Of a stretch of 64,000 nt of DNA, positions 6,641 to 64,000 are shown piece by piece (the stretch's first letter is position 1; each line of letters opens with the position of its first letter). This stretch comes from Leptolyngbya boryana PCC 6306 (GTDB lineage Bacteria > Cyanobacteriota > Cyanobacteriia > Leptolyngbyales > Leptolyngbyaceae): assembly GCF_000353285.1 (NCBI RefSeq), contig NZ_KB731324.1, forward strand, positions 3,056,577-3,120,576, in the 5' to 3' direction. The translations under genes and the position numbers were made by a program. The notes beneath the pieces are model-generated. The model was not told where the DNA came from, did no database searches, and was given only the letters and a program-made list of their open reading frames with translations.

Positions 6641-7267
6641 CGATCGTTAAAAGTGCAACTTCTTGACTAGCGTATCGGGGAACGTTGAGAGGTTTGAAGT
6701 TTTTTCGCGAAACTTTTACAGAATCGGCAAGAAAATCGAGCGTAATTAAATCTTTACACAATACTTACACTAAAAAGGATTGCATCTGTTTTGTATAAAA
6801 AGTACCGAGACCGATCCGAAATCCTTCGTACTGCGACGATCTAACGCAAATGGTAAAAGCCGTATTTTCACTAAATAATCTCCGGCTTGCCCCTTCTATT
6901 TACTCAGTTTATACTGGCAGCCTAGAAAAAACATGGGTTTATCTCCAGTATAAAATGTAATATTTTGCATAATTTCTACTCAGGTCATCTACTGAAGCCT
7001 ATCTGCGAATCGAGATACCTTGGCAGGTTAAAGCCAAGCGAAGTCTCTGAAAGACTGAGTGAAAAGTTTGATTTGAGAAATCAGTCGAATTTTTGCGGAC
7101 TTTAGGATTGATGAAACAAGTCTCAAATAATCTCTCCTCATGTTTTCATAGCAGTCCTAAATTGGTTGTGAAATTGGGGAAGAGGGGCAAGTTTCTCTAC
7201 TCCCCCATTCCTCCAACTGGCAAGATCTGACAAATCAAACAGCAGTGTTATACACAGTTGCAGTTCT
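6641..7267. other. 627-base intergenic region with stem-loops, no gene recognised
   Basis: No tRNA, known sRNA or protein gene was recognised. Three structures are visible. CTTGGC/GCCAAG (7019-7024 with 7033-7038) is followed after three bases by AGTCT/AGACT (7042-7046 with 7052-7056). GACTGA/TCAGTC (7053-7058 with 7081-7086) competes with the second stem, so two alternative folds are possible. Near 7167-7212 an imperfect G-rich/C-rich hairpin lies downstream of trpS and may end its transcript. The metF promoter should lie in the AT-rich part around 6740-6800. Confidence 0.4.
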
Positions 7268-52272: not shown

Positions 52273-52644
52273 TTACGGGAAGTGCCGCCTAGAAAAAGCT
52301 CTCTGTTGCATCTTCAATGCTTTTTCAGATGGGCAATAATCAGAACACTCGATCGCGGATTGAGTCATCACGATCAAAGGGTTTACGGCACATTTGAAAT
52401 AGTAGTTATCATGAAAAAATTGGCAGTTTTGACAAGGAATATTGCTTTCTGGCGAATGAATTCGCGCTCTAGATTCCTTTCTACCTTTCACGACTGACCA
52501 GAGTGCTATTCCCCATATCATGATAAATCCTAGAAGATGGACTACACCAAGACTAGAATTGGGTACAACATCCGGAGGCAGTGGATTAATTGGTTCTGGA
52601 GAAGCTTGGCTTGCTTGAGTTGTAACAAGTTTTATCTGAGTCAT
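52273..52644 (-). CDS. Small membrane protein with cysteine-rich tail
   Basis: This 123-residue protein has a Ser/Thr/Pro-rich N-terminus, one membrane helix (about residues 34-52: VHLLGFIMIWGIALWSV), and a cytoplasmic cysteine motif (CQNCQFFHDNYYFKCAVNP, then ECSDYCP) that could bind a metal. It is not recognised as a named family; the motif suggests a zinc- or iron-sulfur-type site (inference). The ATG at 52644 is the natural start. Confidence 0.75.
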   Translation of the reverse strand: MTQIKLVTTQASQASPEPINPLPPDVVPNSSLGVVHLLGFIMIWGIALWSVVKGRKESRARIHSPESNIPCQNCQFFHDNYYFKCAVNPLIVMTQSAIECSDYCPSEKALKMQQRAFSRRHFP

Positions 52645-52937: not shown

Positions 52938-53147
52938 TTAAGGCGAAGTCGTTGGAGAGGTCGTCGGGCTGGCAGTTGGAGACACAGTTGGAGAGGTTGT
53001 CGGACTGACCGTTGGAGACACGGTTGGAGAAGCTGCTGGCGACTCTGTTGTTCCAGTACCCGTTCCTCCAGTTCCAGCTGGTTCACAGGCACTAAGAACA
53101 GCCGACAAACCAATCAATGCGACTAACAGTGCAAAAATCTTATTCAT
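52938..53147 (-). CDS. Small Ser/Pro/Thr-repeat lipoprotein
   Basis: The product is 69 residues from the ATG at 53147, with GGAG a few bases before it. The signal peptide ends at a lipobox (VLSAC), then the mature part has a Gly/Thr linker followed by repeated SPTVSP and SPTTSP units, as if a wall- or matrix-facing stalk. It lies 85 bases downstream of the rhodopsin gene on the same strand and may be co-transcribed, but a functional link is not shown. Confidence 0.82.
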   Translation of the reverse strand: MNKIFALLVALIGLSAVLSACEPAGTGGTGTGTTESPAASPTVSPTVSPTTSPTVSPTASPTTSPTTSP

Positions 53148-53232: not shown

Positions 53233-54057
53233 TTATGGCAGGCTTCCCGGAAAGACTGGCGGTCTTCTACGGGATCGTCTGGACTGCTTGAGAGAGAAAG
53301 AATTCATGAACCGCATCGTACTGCTCACAAACCGCTCTTCGGCACTCTGCTCTTCTCGATGTCCTAAGCTCCGTAACCCATTTAAGTCAAGAAAGCTAAA
53401 CACCACTTTCGAGAAAAAAGGTACTAAGCAAAACAGAAAGGTATCAACATTCTGATCAAACAAGCGTAATCCAGAAGGACCGCTAATCCAAATCAGTGGA
53501 TAGCAAATCCAAGTAATCGTAAAGAATGTCGTTAGCCCCTTGTAGAAACTCGATAGCTCTGCATCTCCTCGCGTCTTCTCACGCAAGGGACCCCAAATCC
53601 CCCAAAGGACGATTAGAAATGCAACACAGCCGATCGAATACCACAAATACCGCACCCAAGGAACATCTGAAAGATCAGCAATTAACCCACTGACAATCAC
53701 AATCACTTGGGTTGCCATTAAGGAAAAAGTCAACGTCCAATCTTTCGATTGATGGCGGTGCATTGCTGTCCAGGAGAGTGACAACAACAGAAGCGGTGTT
53801 GTTACAATCCAATCGGCATAGCGAGCAAAATGAGTCGTCTGACCTGCGATCGCAATCTTTCCTAGTTCTAAACCATCTCCGCTCGTGGGGAGCACCATGA
53901 GCAGATACATCAAGCCCGACCAGATCGGAATGAAAGTTGCTACAAAGTATTCTAGTTTTGGAAGACCACGAGGATTCCGACCTAACAGTGCAAAATAGAT
54001 CGCTCCAATCGACATTCCCACAATATAAAGCCAGTGCCAAAGGCTCTGCCAATCCAT
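53233..54057 (-). CDS. Anabaena-sensory-rhodopsin-like microbial rhodopsin
   Basis: The start ATG at 54057 is supported by GAGGAGAAGGA just before it; the 274-residue product has seven helices. The retinal Schiff-base lysine is Lys217 (FFSKVVF). The helix C motif RYADWIVTTPLLLLSLS gives Asp82, Thr86 and Ser93 (DTS, where bacteriorhodopsin has DTD). Pro213 replaces the usual Asp of helix G, and Asp224 lies seven residues after the lysine. These are the marks of Anabaena sensory rhodopsin (Asp75, Thr79, Ser86, Pro206, Lys210, Asp217). A photosensor is therefore more likely than a proton pump (inference). The C-terminus extends about 40 residues with a basic RRSRRR tail. No gene resembling the soluble ASR transducer was recognised in the window. 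Confidence 0.93.
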   Translation of the reverse strand: MDWQSLWHWLYIVGMSIGAIYFALLGRNPRGLPKLEYFVATFIPIWSGLMYLLMVLPTSGDGLELGKIAIAGQTTHFARYADWIVTTPLLLLSLSWTAMHRHQSKDWTLTFSLMATQVIVIVSGLIADLSDVPWVRYLWYSIGCVAFLIVLWGIWGPLREKTRGDAELSSFYKGLTTFFTITWICYPLIWISGPSGLRLFDQNVDTFLFCLVPFFSKVVFSFLDLNGLRSLGHREEQSAEERFVSSTMRFMNSFSLKQSRRSRRRPPVFPGSLP

Positions 54058-54465
54058 AAGTTCCTTCTCCTCATCAAAGTGAATATCGAGCTTGCATATA
54101 CCAACGGATTCACATAACACCATTGAGTTACAAGACCGAGAGCTAGGGATAAAATGCTCAACTTCAAGTTAAGGTTTCAGTCTTGAATTACAATTCATCA
54201 CATAGCTTACTTCTGTCGATTTAGAGAAGCCACAATCTAACTTAATCATTTGTCTGTTAGCATCAGCGCCCACCCTGAGCATGTTCTGCAAATGTGACAC
54301 AGAAATGACAAGCTGCATCATGAAAAATAGTTTGCTGTTGTCCTTTCTAAACTCAATCTCTGTCTATAGCATGGTTAATTCTTCTGCTTCAATCATCTAT
54401 TCATACATCAATCAAGAATCAGAATTGATGCCCATATCAAAGAACATCCTCTAGAACTATCTGTT
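54058..54465. other. Divergent intergenic region, no gene recognised
   Basis: This 408-base gap should contain the rhodopsin promoter (minus strand) and the AI-2E-family promoter (plus strand). Beyond the rhodopsin ribosome site at 54061-54071 I see no clear operator, repeat or RNA. Confidence 0.4.
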
Positions 54466-55500
54466 ATGAAAATTGGGCAATGGCTTGGATTAATTGTGCT
54501 TGTTGCTGCACTTTACATTGTTTGGCAGGTTCGGCAACTCTTACTACTAGGATTTACCGCGATCGTGCTTGCGACTGCACTGAATGGCGTTGTGCGTCAA
54601 TTGCAGCGGTTTCGACTCAAGCGAGGATGGGCAATTTTGCTGACACTGGTGACTTTGCTGATATTAGCACTGGTAGCACTTGTACTGATTGTCCCGAATT
54701 TAATCGCGCAGCTTGCTGAATTAATTACTACCTTTCCCAGTGCACTGTCTGCAATTCAGCAAGGCATCAATTGGATTGAGAACCAAATTTTAGATCCCTA
54801 CTTTCCGAATATCCCAAATTTTGACTGGATCATGACGCGACTTCAGCCGTTTGTCGCCAATTTATCGAGACAGGCAATTATCTTCTTTGCAAACTCGATT
54901 AGCGCAGTGTTTGAACTGTTGATTGTATTGATCCTTACGTTAATGTTGCTCATCAATCCTCAACCCTATCGTCACGCATTTATCCGGTGTTTTCCAGCTT
55001 TCTATCGATCTCGTGTCGATGAAGTGTTAACACGTTGTGCGACCGGACTCGAAAATTGGACAAAAGGCGCTCTGATCGAAATGATGTTTATCGGAGTGTT
55101 GAGTGCAATTGGTCTATGGGTTTTACAAGTTCCGCTAGTTCTTGCTCATGCAGTCTTGGCTGGTATCCTGAACTTTATTCCCAATATTGGACCGACGTTG
55201 AGTGCAATTTTTCCTATCGCGATCGCATTCCTAGATGAACCCTGGAAAGCTGTTGCTGTATTAGTCCTATACATTTTGATTCAAAACATTGAGAGCTATT
55301 GGCTCACGCCGACAGTCATGGCAAATCAAGTTGCCCTTCTTCCTGCAATTACGTTGACGGCTCAATTCTTCTTCACAACTGTCTTCGGTGCATTAGGCTT
55401 AGTCATGGCGCTCCCGCTCGCAGTTGTCGTCAAAACCTGCATCGAGGAAGTGCTGTTCAAGGATATTCTCGATCGCTGGCAACAACCGACGGGACGCTAA
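54466..55500 (+). CDS. AI-2E family transporter (PerM-like), copy 1
   Basis: The 344-residue polytopic inner-membrane protein has two N-terminal helices (LIVLVAALYIVWQV and LLLGFTAIVLATALN), a soluble domain and a C-terminal helix group. The AI-2E/DUF20 motifs include ILNFIPNIGPTLSAIFP and ESYWLTPTVMANQVALLPA. Family members export AI-2 or exchange cations, but most cyanobacterial members are untested. Its stop overlaps by four bases the stop of a convergent paralogue gene. Confidence 0.92.
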   Translation: MKIGQWLGLIVLVAALYIVWQVRQLLLLGFTAIVLATALNGVVRQLQRFRLKRGWAILLTLVTLLILALVALVLIVPNLIAQLAELITTFPSALSAIQQGINWIENQILDPYFPNIPNFDWIMTRLQPFVANLSRQAIIFFANSISAVFELLIVLILTLMLLINPQPYRHAFIRCFPAFYRSRVDEVLTRCATGLENWTKGALIEMMFIGVLSAIGLWVLQVPLVLAHAVLAGILNFIPNIGPTLSAIFPIAIAFLDEPWKAVAVLVLYILIQNIESYWLTPTVMANQVALLPAITLTAQFFFTTVFGALGLVMALPLAVVVKTCIEEVLFKDILDRWQQPTGR

Positions 55501-56537
55501 TCCTGCTTTCCCTGCATTTCTTCCACTTCAAATAAGCTAATCAACACTCCCGCGATCGGAATCGATAAAAATACACCCACTAACCCTGCGACTCTTGCAC
55601 CCACTAATAGAGCAAAGAACATCACCACAGGATTCATATTGATTGATCCCTGCATGATGCGTGGCATCAATATGTTCTCTTCGACCTGCTGGAGTAGAAT
55701 GCAACTAACTAATACCGTGAGTGCTAATCCAATTCCTTGAGGCAAAATAATCAGCGAAATTAAAGTAATCCCAAGCGTTGCGCCAATCCCCGGAATGAGA
55801 TCGAAGACTCCCGCGATCGCGGCTAATCCCAAAGCATAGGGCACACCTAGTAAAATAAACACAATGTAAACCGAAATCCCAAAGAAGACAGACAGTAAAA
55901 ACCGTCCCCAGAAAAAACCAAGAAAGTTTTTTCGCACAGCAATAGTTATGCGATCGCGCATTCCTCTCGGAAAAATTCGGAGAATTAAGTCCCAGAGGCG
56001 CTTGCCATCCAAGAGCATGAAGAATGCAACCACCGCAATCACAATCAAATCGAGGGCATTGGCGAGTACATTCTGCACAGTTGTAAAGCCTAGCCCTAAC
56101 GTTGAGAGTGCTCCATTTCGTAATTGTCCTTCTAACTCACTGAAATCTACATTGAGATTCCACCGTTGCAGCAGGCTTTGCAGATTACCCAGAAGTTCGG
56201 TCACACTATTCAAGAGTTGGGGTGCTTGTTCAACCAACTGTTGTGCCTGCGAGAATGCAGCAATTCCCAATGTTACTACAATCCCACCAATGAGCAACAA
56301 GCTAAGCAGGAAAACCAGAACGGTTGCCACTCCCCTTGGCATGATTCGTGATGCCCACCGCACAGGAAAGTTGAGCAGAAACGCAAAAATAGCAGCAAAT
56401 ACAAAAATAATAATAACCGTCTCAAAATAAGCGAGAACTTGAACCACTGCCCATGCCAATGCAAAGAGTAGTACATAGCGAATTAACTTCGTGTTCGTGA
56501 GATTGTCCCAAAAGGATTGACGATTTGGCTCATTCAT
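55497..56537 (-). CDS. AI-2E family transporter (PerM-like), copy 2
   Basis: The 346-residue paralogue has the same layout as the preceding gene: helices LIRYVLLFALAWAVVQVLAYF and IIIFVFAAIFAFLLNF, a soluble middle domain with QAQQLVEQAPQLL, and C-terminal motifs VFDLIPGIGATLGITLISL and ENILMPRIMQGSINMNP. The two genes are convergent with a four-base overlap. They are clearly different in sequence, so this is not a recent inverted duplication. Confidence 0.92.
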   Translation of the reverse strand: MNEPNRQSFWDNLTNTKLIRYVLLFALAWAVVQVLAYFETVIIIFVFAAIFAFLLNFPVRWASRIMPRGVATVLVFLLSLLLIGGIVVTLGIAAFSQAQQLVEQAPQLLNSVTELLGNLQSLLQRWNLNVDFSELEGQLRNGALSTLGLGFTTVQNVLANALDLIVIAVVAFFMLLDGKRLWDLILRIFPRGMRDRITIAVRKNFLGFFWGRFLLSVFFGISVYIVFILLGVPYALGLAAIAGVFDLIPGIGATLGITLISLIILPQGIGLALTVLVSCILLQQVEENILMPRIMQGSINMNPVVMFFALLVGARVAGLVGVFLSIPIAGVLISLFEVEEMQGKQD

Positions 56538-56687: not shown

Positions 56688-57791
56688 CTAGACCTCGACA
56701 AGGTTTTGAATAGCCTGCCACCAATGATTTCGCCCGTTTCGCTGATGCCAATACCAATACTCACAGCCCCAAAGCATCACTGTGCGATAACCAAGATTCT
56801 TCACCATACTGATAAGTTCGGTTATACGCTCTGGAGATGCACTAGGGTAGTGAATATCATTCATTGCAACCAATTGATTCGGTTCCCAAGGTTCAGCTTG
56901 AGCTTCCGCAATCCATGCTTCTATGCGATTCCGTCTCATCACTTCCTGCCAGTCTTTGAGTTTCTCCCAATAGGATTCACCTGGTTCTAGGTAGCCATCA
57001 TGACCATCGGGAACTCTTGTATATACATTAATCCCGATCGCATCTGCTAAGGCTAAGCTATTTTGAAATGCCTGCTCATCTTCCTCAATGTAGGTCGGAA
57101 GACCGATGGCATTGGTTAGCACCACTTTTTGCTGAGGCAGAGCTAAACTTCTCACCAACTCTACCTCCTGTCGCATAAACTCAGGGCTGAGAAAGCGATC
57201 GCCTGTAATCTCCATTCGCGCAAACGGCTCATTTTCAACTTGCCAATAGCGCACACTCTGAGCTGTACGAGTATGATGGATGACGCGATCGACAAAGCGA
57301 AGAGTGCGCTCTGCGATCTCCCGATTATCATCTATGGGTTGGGTTGTATTTCGAGTATCTTGCTGGACTTCTAACCAGTGTGGAAAATGGAATTCAGGCC
57401 ATCTTGGGGCTTTCATACCCACTGTCAGGATCACTTCTAACCCACGTCGATCGCTTTCTTCTAAAAGCCAATCGAGAACGCTAAAGTCATACTGATTTTC
57501 GATCGGCTCGACTTCATTCCAATAGCTACAAAGGCGGATTCGGTGGAACCCCAGATCACAGATCTGGCGGAATGTTTCTTGATAGTCTAGGTTGAGATAC
57601 TCACACTGAAGCTGGCTGAACGTTGTTCCTAATTTGAATGAATGGCTCATTCGCATGAGATGCTTAAGCTGTGGGTATGCCACAACAGCCCCTGCACCAG
57701 ATGCCATAAGGCTTAGAAAGCTCATCGTAGAAAGCGTTGTAAACTGTCTACGAGTCAATCTCTGAGAGCGAGAAGATCGGGTTGACAGCAT
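56688..57791 (-). CDS. Exported glycoside-hydrolase-like protein (clan GH-A), Tat-type signal
   Basis: The 367-residue protein has a twin-arginine N-terminus (RLTRRQFTTLSTMSFLSL) with a hydrophobic core, so it is probably exported or membrane-tethered. The TIM-barrel part shows HRIRLCSYWNEVEP, an acid/base-type Glu in RYWQVENEPF, and a second Glu in EAWIAEAQAEPWEP, the usual positions of clan GH-A glycosidases. The C-terminal LWGCEYWYWH is also typical of that clan. The polysaccharide target is unknown. It is monocistronic, and its start at 57791 faces a 298-base gap. Confidence 0.9.
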   Translation of the reverse strand: MLSTRSSRSQRLTRRQFTTLSTMSFLSLMASGAGAVVAYPQLKHLMRMSHSFKLGTTFSQLQCEYLNLDYQETFRQICDLGFHRIRLCSYWNEVEPIENQYDFSVLDWLLEESDRRGLEVILTVGMKAPRWPEFHFPHWLEVQQDTRNTTQPIDDNREIAERTLRFVDRVIHHTRTAQSVRYWQVENEPFARMEITGDRFLSPEFMRQEVELVRSLALPQQKVVLTNAIGLPTYIEEDEQAFQNSLALADAIGINVYTRVPDGHDGYLEPGESYWEKLKDWQEVMRRNRIEAWIAEAQAEPWEPNQLVAMNDIHYPSASPERITELISMVKNLGYRTVMLWGCEYWYWHQRNGRNHWWQAIQNLVEV

Positions 57792-57968
57792 CGTTTGCGT
57801 TGCTCAATGAATGGGAAAGCATGAGTTATGGGCGTGAGAGTTGCTTTATCTCTAGCCTTACCTCTAATAGTTGCTATCAAAACATGACAAGAAAGTGACA
57901 ATGTTTCGTCTGTCCTCTGAATGGGATTTGCTGATTGGGGCAAATGCTCTGAATTCTGCTGAGGAGCA

Positions 57969-58008: not shown

Positions 58009-58089
58009 CGTTTTAAGAACTTGTCACTTTTTAGTCACAATCTCATTGAACTGTTGAAGTAGCGGGATTTGAAATATGAGGAGGTTGCA

Positions 58090-58428
58090 ATGGGTAGCAT
58101 TCTCTTGACTTGGCTTGTGACGACTGTGAGCTTTCTCATGATTTCCAGACTACCTATCGGTGTTGAGATTGATGGATTTGGAAAAGCTGCGCTCACGGCA
58201 GTTGTTTTCGGAGTGCTGAATGCGTTCCTACGACCCATCCTATTGCTCTTTGGACTCCCCCTAATTATTATTACGTTCGGGTTATTTGTATTTGTCCTGA
58301 ATGCAATCATTTTTAGCATTGCGGCAGAGATCGTTGAGGGATTCCAATTGCGCTATGGTTTTTGGAGTGCTTTGCTTGGCTCGATTGCTTTATCAATCAT
58401 CAATTCGATCTTTCTGTCTTTTATTTAG
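58090..58428 (+). CDS. Phage-holin-family small membrane protein
   Basis: The 112-residue protein starts at the ATG at 58090, with GAGGAGG five bases upstream. Four hydrophobic helices are visible ([77 protein letters not shown]). It resembles the bacterial holin superfamily 4 group (Mmp-like), common and non-phage in cyanobacteria. It lies 29 bases before the superoxide dismutase gene and probably shares its transcript. Confidence 0.88.
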
Positions 58429-58457: not shown

Positions 58458-59255
58458 ATGCGAAAATTCCTACAGCATCCGATTACTTTATTTCTTACCT
58501 TGATTTTAGGTTTCTTTGTTGCGTGCCAGCCCCAAGCTTCCACTCAGCAAACTCCAGCCCAGAGTCCAACTGCGTCACCCACAGTTTCGACTCCAGTTGC
58601 CTATGTCGATCGTCCCTTAACTGCTTCTCCTGCTCAACTGCCACCCTTGCCCTATGATGCAGGTGCATTAAGTAAAGCGATCGACGCTGAAACGATGCGA
58701 ATTCACCACGATCGACATCACCAAACCTATGTAGACAATCTCAATACTGCGCTCAAAGATCAGCCAAACTTGCAAAACCTGAGTATTGAAGCGATGCTGC
58801 GCGACCTTAATGCGGTTCCTGAAAATATTCGCAACACGATCCGCAACAACGCAGGAGGACATCTCAACCACACGATTTTCTGGCAGATCATGAGTCCAGA
58901 CGGCGGCGGCCAACCCACAGGAGCGATCGCTCAAGCCATCAATCAAACCTTTGGGAATTTTGAAAGTTTTCGTAAACAGTTTAATGAAGCGGGGGGCGAT
59001 CGCTTTGGAAGCGGTTGGGTTTGGCTGGTGCGGAATGCTCAAGGACAACTTCAAATCGTCTCAACCGCGAATCAAGATAATCCCATTATGGAAGGCAACT
59101 ATCCCATCATGGGCAACGATGTTTGGGAACATGCTTACTATCTCCGCTACCAAAATCGCCGAGCCGACTATCTGAACAACTGGTGGAATGTCGTCAACTG
59201 GAACGAGATTAATCGCCGATTCCAAGCGGCTTCACAACAGCAGGCGAGGAGTTAA
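58458..59255 (+). CDS. Lipoprotein Fe/Mn superoxide dismutase
   Basis: The start ATG at 58458 has AGGAGAT eight bases before it. The 265-residue protein has a signal peptide with lipobox (FFVACQP), a Ser/Thr/Pro linker, then a full Fe/Mn-[23 protein letters not shown] with [39 protein letters not shown] and [25 protein letters not shown]. The metal ligands are the two His, Asp and His of this fold. The GGGQP motif favours Mn, but this is not decisive. It converts superoxide to peroxide and O2 outside the cytoplasm. Only two bases separate its stop from the next ATG. Confidence 0.95.
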
Positions 59256-59257
59256 GA

Positions 59258-60595
59258 ATGCGAAGCTTATTGATGCACAGCCCGATCGTAGTTGCGCTCG
59301 GTTGGATCATTGCATTTCTGTTCTTTACGATTCTCCCTCTATTTGTTCTGCTCATCTATTCGCCGCCAGCGGGGCGAGGGTTTTGGCTTGACTTCTCGGT
59401 AGCGCTTGGCTTCATTGGCTTAGCACTGATGGCGCTACAATTTGCACTGACAGCCCGAATCAATCGAATTGAAGCCTCTTACGGGATTGATTTGATTTTG
59501 TCGTTTCATCGTTATACCTCGTTTGTTGCTTTTGTGATGGTGTTGGTGCATCCGCTGATTCTGTTTTGGGCGCAGCCGAATACCATTGAGTTGCTAAATT
59601 TTCCAGTAGCTCCGTTGCGGGCGCAACTGGCAGTCTTAGCAACTCTGGCATTTATGACGATGATTGTGACTACAATTTGGCGCAAGCCGCTCAAGATTCC
59701 CTATGAACCCTGGCGATTGTCTCATTCGATTTTGTCAGTGTTAGCGGTGGGATTAGGACTGGGACACGCCTTGGGGGTCGGGAACTATCTGGGATTGTTT
59801 TGGAAATCGGTCTTGTGGTCAGCGATCGCACTTGTCGCGATTTGGTTAATTGTTTACATTCGCCTGGTTAAACCCTGGTTGATGACGAAAAAACCGTTTC
59901 TTGTTGAAGAAGTCAAGCCAGAGCGCGGCGATGTTTGGACACTTGCCCTTCGCCCTGTGGGCCATGATGGTTTCCGGTTTCAGCCCGGTCAGTTTGCTTG
60001 GATTACCCTGAACATTACCCCGTTTAGTATGCGGGAACATCCCTTTTCGTTGTCGTCAAGTGGAGAACACCCGGAGCGATTAGAGTTTGGCATTAAAGCC
60101 GTGGGAGATTTTACCAGTCGCATCAGGGACTATCAACCCGGAACAAAAGCATATCTGGATGGTCCCTATGGTGTGTTTACAACGGATCGCTATGAAGATG
60201 CGGCTGGATTTGTGTTGATTGCTGGCGGCATTGGCATCACCCCGATGATGAGTATGTTGGTCACAGCAGCAGAGCGAGGAGACGATCGCCCCTATACCCT
60301 GATCTATGCCAATAAAACTTGGGATGGAATTACCTACCGTGAAGCGATCGAAGAACTCAAAACAAGATTAGATCTCACGATCATTCATGTGCTGCGTGAA
60401 CCACCAGAAGATTGGGAAGGAGAGACCGGATATGTGGATCAAGAATTGCTCGATCGCTATATCCCCAAACGTCGAGGCACTCGGCACTATTTTACCTGTG
60501 CTTCTCCCAAAATGATGGATCAAGTAGAGCGTGCCCTGCACGAACTCAATGTTCCTGTGACCAATGTGCATTTAGAGCATTACAACCTAGCCTGA
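59258..60595 (+). CDS. Ferric-reductase-like transmembrane flavoprotein
   Basis: The 445-residue protein has six or seven N-terminal helices with His pairs in LILSFHRYTSFVAFVMVLVHP and WRLSHSILSVLAVGLGLGHAL that can hold heme b, then an FAD domain (FRFQPGQFAWITL, MREHPFSLSS) and an NAD(P)-binding domain (VLIAGGIGITPMMSM, YFTCASPKMMDQVERAL). This is the FRE/NOX-like layout. It may reduce iron or oxygen at the membrane, and its tight coupling to the SOD gene suggests handling of superoxide, or production coupled to its removal (inference). GCGAGGAG lies just before the ATG. Confidence 0.93.
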   Translation: MRSLLMHSPIVVALGWIIAFLFFTILPLFVLLIYSPPAGRGFWLDFSVALGFIGLALMALQFALTARINRIEASYGIDLILSFHRYTSFVAFVMVLVHPLILFWAQPNTIELLNFPVAPLRAQLAVLATLAFMTMIVTTIWRKPLKIPYEPWRLSHSILSVLAVGLGLGHALGVGNYLGLFWKSVLWSAIALVAIWLIVYIRLVKPWLMTKKPFLVEEVKPERGDVWTLALRPVGHDGFRFQPGQFAWITLNITPFSMREHPFSLSSSGEHPERLEFGIKAVGDFTSRIRDYQPGTKAYLDGPYGVFTTDRYEDAAGFVLIAGGIGITPMMSMLVTAAERGDDRPYTLIYANKTWDGITYREAIEELKTRLDLTIIHVLREPPEDWEGETGYVDQELLDRYIPKRRGTRHYFTCASPKMMDQVERALHELNVPVTNVHLEHYNLA

Positions 60596-62532: not shown

Positions 62533-62925
62533 TTAATTGACGATTCGATAGCGCACGAGCTTTCTGACCTCTTGAATCGGTATCCCAATTTCCTCTGCGA
62601 TCATAGATTCAATTTGTCTCGATTCAGTCATCGGGAACTCGTATTCTAATTTTTTCAGATTAGAATCAGTCGTTTTAATCGAGACTGCGGTTGCTTTACG
62701 ACGCTGATCAATCTCGGCATGAATCACCAAAATTGTGACAGATAGCTTCATTTCCAACTGCGTATCGGCTTGAAGCTGAGTTGGACTCGTATAAGAGCTG
62801 TACAACACTTGAGACGCGATCGCACTTCCCGTCAGCCAGAACAGAATGCCAGCCAGTGCCAGCACCAGCCAAAATTCTGCGCCGATCGATTTAACCTGCC
62901 GAATGACTCGCCGGAGCCGTTTCAT
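62533..62925 (-). CDS. Small membrane-anchored protein, unknown
   Basis: The 130-residue protein starts at the ATG at 62925 (MKRLRRVIRQV) after GAGAAGG. It has one N-terminal membrane helix (about residues 18-42: AEFWLVLALAGILFWLTG) and a soluble domain with IQEVRKLVRYRIVN at its end. Not recognised as a family. It is divergent from the regulator gene to its right, so it may be a target of that two-component system (inference). Confidence 0.7.
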   Translation of the reverse strand: MKRLRRVIRQVKSIGAEFWLVLALAGILFWLTGSAIASQVLYSSYTSPTQLQADTQLEMKLSVTILVIHAEIDQRRKATAVSIKTTDSNLKKLEYEFPMTESRQIESMIAEEIGIPIQEVRKLVRYRIVN

Positions 62926-63047
62926 AACCACCTTCTCTAGACCGTGAGCTAGCGTAATCCCTGGAGATAGATTTGAAATCTTGCCAGAGCAGGAAGTTTG
63001 TCAGCCTGGAACTCTCTAATTTGAAAGAGTCGTATTTTTATTCAGCA

Positions 63048-63722
63048 ATGCGAATTCTGCTCGTTGAAGATGATCCTGAACAACTCGAACCCCTCCATAC
63101 CGCACTATCAGAGGTTGGGCATATTGTTGATGCGGTGCAGAACGGCGAAATCGCGCAGTGGATTTTGTCGCAGCGTCACTATGATCTGCTCATTCTGGAT
63201 TGGATGCTGCCCGAGGTGAGTGGAATTGATCTCTGTCTGGGCTACCGCAGTGCTGGAAAAACTTCACCTGTGCTCATCCTCACGGCAAAAGACACGACGA
63301 GCGATAAAATTACTGGCTTAGATGCGGGAGCCGATGATTATCTCGTTAAGCCTGTTGATGTGTTTGAATTGCTAGCACGAGTTCGGGCATTGGGCAGACG
63401 CTCTCCACTGTGGCAAGGGGAAACGCTTCAAATCGAAGACCTCATGCTTAACTTAACCACGCTCTCCATAGAACGTCACGATCGCGCTATTCAACTTTCA
63501 ACCCGAGAATTTCAACTGCTAGAATATCTCATGCGTCATCCGCGTCAAGTTCTGAGTCGAGATCAGTTAGAGCACGCGTTATGGGAGTGGGGTGATGAAC
63601 CAGAGAGTAACGCAATCACTGCCCTTGTGCGGCGACTCCGGCAACGTTTAGAATCCCTTGAAGTTGCAGACTGGATTGAAACCGTTTATGGCATGGGCTA
63701 TCGTCTGAGTCCGAAAGTATAG
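63048..63722 (+). CDS. OmpR family response regulator, RppA-like
   Basis: The 224-residue regulator begins at the ATG at 63048 (MRILLVEDDPEQLEPL); the frame is open further upstream without signal. The receiver has its Asp in LLILDWMLPEVSG and Lys in YLVKPVDVFE, and the winged helix ends DWIETVYGMGYRLS. The DW residue pair at the phospho-acceptor and LGRRSPLW linker resemble RppA-type cyanobacterial regulators of redox or metal responses. A kinase gene follows 15 bases downstream. Confidence 0.93.
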   Translation: MRILLVEDDPEQLEPLHTALSEVGHIVDAVQNGEIAQWILSQRHYDLLILDWMLPEVSGIDLCLGYRSAGKTSPVLILTAKDTTSDKITGLDAGADDYLVKPVDVFELLARVRALGRRSPLWQGETLQIEDLMLNLTTLSIERHDRAIQLSTREFQLLEYLMRHPRQVLSRDQLEHALWEWGDEPESNAITALVRRLRQRLESLEVADWIETVYGMGYRLSPKV

Positions 63723-63737: not shown

Positions 63738-64000
63738 ATGTTCACGCGCAGCCGTCGGAATCTTTCTCGTTGGTTTATGCTTTCAATGGGAAGTATTCTG
63801 ATGGTCTTTGCGGTTACTCGCTATTATCTGACTGCGATCGAGCGCTTGAAGTATCTCGATCAACTGCTGTATAAGAAGGCTCAGGTCGTTGCCGCGACAG
63901 TACAGTACAAGCAGCGAGACGGACACCGCCAAATTGACTTCAGAAATGTTCCGTTTCTAGGAGAGTCGCCGTTGCCCCCTGGAAGTGATGCCGTGTATGC
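63738..64000 (+). CDS. Sensor histidine kinase N-terminus, cut by window end
   Basis: AGGAGG lies eleven bases before the ATG at 63738, and the frame is open to the window end. The visible 87 residues start MFTRSRRNLSRWFMLSMGS, contain one membrane helix and an extracytoplasmic start, as in RppB-like kinases. It is the likely partner of the preceding regulator. The kinase domains lie beyond the window. Confidence 0.85.
   Translation, partial: MFTRSRRNLSRWFMLSMGSILMVFAVTRYYLTAIERLKYLDQLLYKKAQVVAATVQYKQRDGHRQIDFRNVPFLGESPLPPGSDAVY

Follow-up and report, generated by a model that had tools for sequence, protein, structure and literature searches.

The 64,000-nt stretch of Leptolyngbya boryana PCC 6306 analysed here (contig NZ_KB731324.1; hereafter the window) encodes a new member of the Anabaena sensory rhodopsin (ASR) family, an orthologue of ASR that shares the basic C-terminal tail of ASR. 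The genome lacks the transducer ASRT, and the rhodopsin gene is preceded by a conserved box which it has in common with other genes and which is linked, across genomes, to an RppA-type response regulator. We consider it probable that this protein is an ASR-type sensor working without ASRT, expressed as part of an RppA-type two-component stress regulon and perhaps giving its output via the tail. The features concerned are listed in Table 1; loci and genomes are cited by our L and G numbers.

Table 1. Features in the window, with positions counted from its first base
Feature	Position	Strand	Remarks
ASR-type rhodopsin (xenorhodopsin clade)	53233..54057	-	274 aa plus stop; Lys217 for retinal
Rhodopsin tail	residues 230-274		~45 residues; basic cluster SRRSRRR
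Predicted response-regulator box and -10-like element	54277..54309	-	GTCATTTCTGTGTCACATT at 54309-54291, then N8-A-N3-T
AI-2E family transporter	54466..55500	+	divergent; shares intergenic region with rhodopsin
Second, weaker box	57881..57899	-	15/18 positions, 17.5 bits; upstream of GH42-like gene 56688-57791
Third box	58023..58041	+	16/18 positions, 20.0 bits; upstream of the run of the next three genes
Small membrane protein, PF04020 family	58090..58428	+	
Fe/Mn superoxide dismutase	58458..59255	+	N-terminal extension resembling a lipoprotein signal
Ferric-reductase-like flavoprotein	59258..60595	+	PF01794, PF08022, PF00175
132-aa protein	62533..62931	-	one hydrophobic segment; divergent from the adjacent response regulator, as also at other rhodopsin loci
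OmpR-family response regulator	62973..63722	+	NCBIfam RppA equivalog, 266 bits (cut-off 250); likely ATG 63048
Partner histidine kinase, start only	63738..64000	+	438 aa, RppB-like; runs past the window to L137:4631

An orthologue of Anabaena sensory rhodopsin and its tail

An earlier note, made from the letters of the window, had recognised a sensory-type rhodopsin of the Anabaena class at this place. This is borne out by a PF01036 match of 188 bits and by a phmmer search, in which full-length ASR (PDB 1xio) is the best solved relative (E=4e-96, aligned 1-265) and the xenorhodopsin 7zmy represents the next PDB family (E=5e-50). The same note had read Asp82, Thr86, Ser93, Pro213, Lys217 and Asp224 as the ASR set, and in an alignment of 43 rows (the window protein, ASR and 41 homologues) all six indeed fall opposite their ASR counterparts D75, T79, S86, P206, K210 and D217; Glu36 is also common to both proteins. 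The lysine for retinal is thus present, and Pro replaces BR Asp212. P213 and K217 occur in 43/43 rows, while Ser at position 93 is not universal (Ala in many rows), L127 has Ser at the T86 position, and L106 and L107 have Glu at the D224 position. L088, which is 94% identical, carries a stop immediately before MDWQ, and the start at 54057 is therefore preferred to that of the longer ORF (54123). In this closest relative the reading frame is also broken by a stop near residue 65, in a genome with two short-tailed copies (L106 and L107). Decay is seen at L158 as well (near 6995, minus strand; G442), where deletion has spared the promoter box, part of the basic tail and a stretch of ~28 residues at helix C; L102, from G436 of the same genus, has an intact rhodopsin gene at this site.

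The genome (7.26 Mb, 99.99% complete) holds this single rhodopsin and two RPE65-family carotenoid oxygenases, which make a supply of retinal plausible. No relative of the protein was found in viral contigs, and the rhodopsins in eight plasmid records are each less than 60% identical to it. AlphaFold2, run on a 5-row alignment, yields a model of poor quality (mean pLDDT 58.5, pTM 0.50) that shows seven helices and, with low confidence, a tail helix at residues 239-253.

The earlier note had further regarded a 40-residue tail with RRSRRR as extra. This has to be abandoned, since in the phmmer alignment the tail lies opposite SRR..SR, close to the ASR C-terminus (1xio, a 261-aa chain aligned to 258), and since long tails, of 41-53 residues beyond the ASR-D217 position, are found in 33 of the 43 rows, the other ten having 20-27 residues. 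Every long tail contains at least three K/R within some 8-residue stretch, and K/R clustering exceeds the shuffled mean in 33/33; the charge resides in the distal half (mean +5.5), the proximal half being near-neutral (-0.7). For the window tail by itself the clustering is not significant (p=0.10). An amphipathic tail helix was rejected (p=0.19 in the window, below 0.05 in 2/33 tails). Tail length requires two changes on the unrooted core tree and, consequently, long tails are more common and may represent the older state. For residues 230-255 dN/dS could be obtained in 3 of 7 comparisons and is low (0.03-0.12), and the last 19 residues evolve fast (0.15-0.71 in 5 of 7), in both cases with synonymous sites near saturation.

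The combination of a fast-evolving basic end, loose in sequence and constant in positive charge, with the existence of ten short-tailed rows and two changes on the tree would fit a tail without a signalling role, serving only to hold on to lipid headgroups or to stabilise the oligomer. This is possible, if somewhat unlikely, given the low dN/dS of residues 230-255 and a report on ASR itself: Irieda and co-workers reportedly observed in 2012 that ASR represses the phycocyanin promoter in E. coli and that its C-terminal arginines are required for this. The DNA contact by the tail that the earlier note proposed is therefore an idea already published for ASR. In its accessible part, PMC8292405 terms ASR 'a transcriptional regulator' and cites Irieda et al. 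2012. As a replacement for ASRT the tail was rejected, because tail length and ASRT are uncorrelated across the aligned rows: both rows from ASRT operons are long-tailed, and so are 24 of the 32 from ASRT-free genomes (the window and L005 excluded).

A conserved box linked to an RppA-type regulator

Alignment of the regions upstream of close rhodopsin relatives first revealed a conserved block. The consensus of this block (GTCAYTTTTNTGTCACWTT) is a direct repeat of 11 bp, which can be written as GTCAY-TTTY-NN-RTCAC-WTT plus a -10-like element, and the box of the window rhodopsin agrees with it at 17/18 positions (28.7 bits), 252 bp upstream of the ATG. Boxes scoring at least 14/18 precede 28 of 42 rhodopsin genes (the remaining 14 score lower) and 21 of the 34 genes outside the definition of the consensus, against 36 of 660 random 450-bp stretches from the same loci, a control that may include true boxes of other genes. 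All 28 matches have an A nine bases beyond the box and 25 have a T four bases after that A, a spacing which resembles a -10 element with the repeat covering -35, and a promoter is predicted on this basis. An 11-bp direct repeat over -35 is the architecture of OmpR/PhoB regulators, and this layout, including the fixed distance to the -10-like element, is conserved across the loci.

A 33-bp weight matrix built from 21 dissimilar sites found 59 sites of at least 18 bits in 471 kb, versus none in the reversed sequence (63 versus 2 at 17 bits or more). At no more than one mismatch, the whole genome contains four sites, versus one for the pattern read backwards. Three of these four lie within 11 kb, i.e., before the rhodopsin, before the run of PF04020, dismutase and ferric-reductase-like genes, and 1.2 kb past the window end, 169 bp after the end of the kinase gene (32.4 bits). 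Scans for sigma-70 promoters and terminators gave chance level only, and Rfam and tRNA scans of the window found nothing.

The genes downstream of the boxes make the set read as a stress regulon. For 96 distinct sites the ORF behind the box was taken (at least 80 aa, within ~500 bp, longer ones preferred, so that small first genes may be skipped), and rhodopsins, on which the sampling was centred, account for 28. Ferric-reductase-like homologues follow at 11 sites other than that in the window (two of them before one gene), P-type ATPases at 7, amino-acid permeases at 6, two further groups, one of them a trypsin-like protease, at 4 each, and superoxide dismutase, MgtE and AI-2E transporters at 3 each; pairs and singles make up the rest, apart from 4 sites without an ORF. 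The P-type ATPases, the trypsin-like proteases and the single catalase-like and trehalose-synthase-like sequences were named by eye, without a family search. At L153, L154 and L173 trypsin-like (Deg-type, by eye) proteases stand behind boxes that come after the kinase.

Some neighbours of the rhodopsin recur elsewhere. The window has two adjoining AI-2E transporter genes on opposite strands (54466-56537), and an AI-2E homologue is near the rhodopsin in 10 of 42 loci, in nine of which (among them the window) it is divergent, while in the tenth it lies upstream in the same orientation; considered as a partner, it was taken as local synteny. A small lipoprotein-like ORF with SPT repeats (52938-53147), ~85 bp after the rhodopsin, is otherwise found in 1 of 40 loci (L088). 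The 123-aa product of 52273-52644, in which a Cys motif and a single hydrophobic segment are recognised, has homologues near the rhodopsin in L088, L099 and L105, with boxes upstream in the first two. The 132-aa protein divergent from the regulator has no Pfam or NCBIfam match.

To the suggestion in the earlier note that the signal partner may differ we add a candidate, the regulator/kinase pair that begins ~9 kb from the rhodopsin and runs past the window end. The kinase remains under the RppB equivalog cut-off (283.5 vs 400 bits). Regulators 65-73% identical to that of the window lie near rhodopsins in L092 and L119 (both split), L102, L103, L111, L114, L115, L120 and L124. At E<=1e-70 the regulator is present in 37 of 40 rhodopsin genomes and in 17 of 40 hand-picked rhodopsin-free genomes and, consequently, is not a dedicated partner of the rhodopsin, being missing from three of the former and present in many of the latter. 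On the same contig it is found no more than 5 kb from the rhodopsin in 8 of the 40 genomes, no more than 10 kb in 12 and no more than 20 kb in 13, where 0.11, 0.22 and 0.43 would be expected, although the genomes share ancestry and these counts are hence not independent; in G494 (first copy), G539 and G596 the two genes are far apart on one contig. Boxes of at least 17 bits occur at 9 of 14 regulator loci from rhodopsin genomes and at 11 of 16 from rhodopsin-free genomes (18 sites in 165 kb), ten of the 30 loci being without, versus one weak box in thirty random 20-kb stretches (600 kb; ten from the own genome, twenty from ten others). The density at 29 regulator loci is ~68 times that of the random stretches and the excess persists in rhodopsin-free genomes. 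Therefore, the box is tied to the regulator, with the rhodopsin as one of the genes it serves.

The reported binding sequence of RppA in Synechocystis PCC 6803 is AAMAWCTCYYWCCCC (accessible part of the review PMC13421787), which the window box does not resemble, so that either a subgroup with another site or another factor would bind the box. That the box belongs to a different regulator, with the RppA-type pair a mere target or bystander in a stress island, would also suit its position, often after the kinase and not before the regulator, which is the first downstream ORF at 1 of 96 sites (L161). The high box density at the regulator loci, with or without rhodopsin, and the OmpR/PhoB architecture of the repeat lead us to regard this as unlikely.

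The recurrence of the pair close to rhodopsins, which we attribute to regulation through the box, could also mean that the rhodopsin signals directly via this kinase and regulator, which would replace ASRT, the photoreceptor altering the activity of the kinase in the membrane. In five short-tailed loci (L111, L115, L119, L120 and L124) rhodopsin, small protein, regulator and kinase adjoin, and two-component genes near the xenorhodopsin of Cyanothece PCC 7424 had already been remarked upon (PMC3198991, in the text available). However, the kinase and regulator are found with the same boxes in genomes without rhodopsin, from which it follows that the kinase has an input of its own, and the box in the rhodopsin promoter already accounts for the linkage; direct signalling thus seems quite unlikely. 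The full cassette of the five loci consists of a divergent P-type ATPase (by eye), the rhodopsin, the small protein on the opposite strand, the response regulator and the kinase, with boxes facing the ATPase as well as the rhodopsin.

Proposed mechanism and the missing transducer

We propose that the kinase senses stress and phosphorylates the RppA-family, OmpR/PhoB-type regulator, which would then bind the 11-bp direct repeat that covers the -35 region, both at the rhodopsin gene and at the run of superoxide dismutase and ferric-reductase-like genes and the glycosidase gene, and activate all of them. Rhodopsin, dismutase and other proteins would thus be produced together under stress. The rhodopsin most likely photoswitches rather than pumps outward, it would work without ASRT here, and its output may pass through the cytoplasmic basic tail to DNA or another partner. 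Sequence comparison lends good support to the steps as far as the box, while output through the tail is the weakest step. In Anabaena other regulators also act on asr, since FurA sites and iron control have been reported there (PMC4005646 and PMC12282138, accessible parts).

An inward proton pump, like other xenorhodopsins, or a weak pump is a very doubtful alternative to a sensor. The xenorhodopsin clade, to which ASR-type proteins are assigned, is described as one of inward H+ pumps, yet the same source describes ASR as without detectable ion transport (PMC7541481, as far as accessible). A single change of Asp217 to Glu lets ASR pump inward (available part of PMC3198991), but the window rhodopsin has the Asp of wild-type ASR at this position (Asp224) and the rest of the ASR set.

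Of the earlier note, the assignment to the ASR class and the lack of the transducer stand, unlike the notion that the tail is extra. No ASRT gene was found nearby, and the genome-wide search proposed at that time gave 0 PF07100 matches in the window and in the whole 99.99%-complete genome, and 0 matches at E<=1 when a cyanobacterial ASRT protein (taken from G305) served as query; the PF07100 search does recover ASRT in other cyanobacteria. The ASR-bearing genomes comprise 39 of the 388 of the class sample (E<=1e-40) and G305 from the phylum sample. By PF07100, ASRT is missing from 32 of these 40 and present in 8; it adjoins the rhodopsin in one (G305) and is on a separate contig or 2.6 Mb off in the other seven. 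An overlooked ASRT or ASRT-like protein acting from elsewhere in the genome is extremely improbable: although the wider ASRAH superfamily is divergent (accessible text of PMC2739507), both searches were empty, which led to the rejection of this candidate, and so many other ASR-bearing genomes lack PF07100. PMC3198991 (available part) noted in 2011 that other xenorhodopsin genomes had yielded no ASRT homologue, and the case presented here is therefore a further one of a known phenomenon, now counted.

Across genomes ASRT and ASR-type rhodopsins are loosely associated. In the class sample ASRT occurs in 7 of 39 ASR-bearing versus 8 of 349 other genomes (odds ratio 9.3, Fisher p=2e-4), four of the seven belonging to one genus, and this co-occurrence above expectation indicates that ASRT is not irrelevant to the ASR family. 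The cyanobacteria G442, G450, G504, G528, G562, G024 and G157 have ASRT without an ASR-type rhodopsin match (E<=1e-40); ASRT without rhodopsin has been published for other bacteria (PMC2739507, accessible text).

Meaning and comparison with known systems

To the best of our knowledge, the role of ASR in the living cell is still unsettled, and most work on ASR starts from the ASR-ASRT pair. In the genomes sampled here this pair is the exception and the basic tail the commoner state. Furthermore, the data place the rhodopsin gene within a regulon that can be delimited, and for which a candidate regulator and a 19-bp site can be named, which makes the physiology of the rhodopsin testable, and the nearby two-component stress regulator provides a testable lead on the role of ASR-type rhodopsins. 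In the literature searched, mostly without subscription journals and in part accessible only as excerpts, neither the box nor its tie to an RppA-type pair nor a rhodopsin in such a regulon was found described. We regard these three as new, while the absence of ASRT and the idea of tail-DNA contact were known. Speculatively, and in our view rather doubtfully, ASR-type rhodopsins might provide the light sensing for a two-component stress regulon that is widespread in cyanobacteria, in which the regulator installs the rhodopsin under stress, the rhodopsin feeds light colour back, through its tail at promoters or through the kinase, and ASRT is a late add-on in a few lineages.

Among known systems, the PHO box of E. 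coli and PhoB promoters have GTCA repeats with an 11-bp period over -35 and a -10 at a fixed distance. The window box is likened to them by this layout, in a different phylum and with no apparent link to phosphate. From the ASR-ASRT operon of Nostoc/Anabaena PCC 7120 (alr3165-66) the photoreceptor half is present in the window, whereas the organism is without the transducer half, in operon and genome. The response regulator passes the NCBIfam cut-off for RppA of the RppA/RppB (NrsR/NrsS) pair of Synechocystis PCC 6803, from which the system differs in its kinase, below the RppB cut-off, and in its box, unlike the published RppA motif. With the xenorhodopsin 7zmy, whose 229-aa chain is without the long tail, the protein shares the clade (PMC7541481) and the helix-G Pro in place of BR Asp212 (PMC3198991), as given in the accessible parts of these sources. 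Compared with ASR (1xio/2m3g/4tl3), the window rhodopsin has seven more residues between helices B and C and a tail extending ~9 residues beyond its own basic cluster, but it has 63% core identity, the same retinal-pocket set and the same type of tail with an SRR...SR basic stretch.
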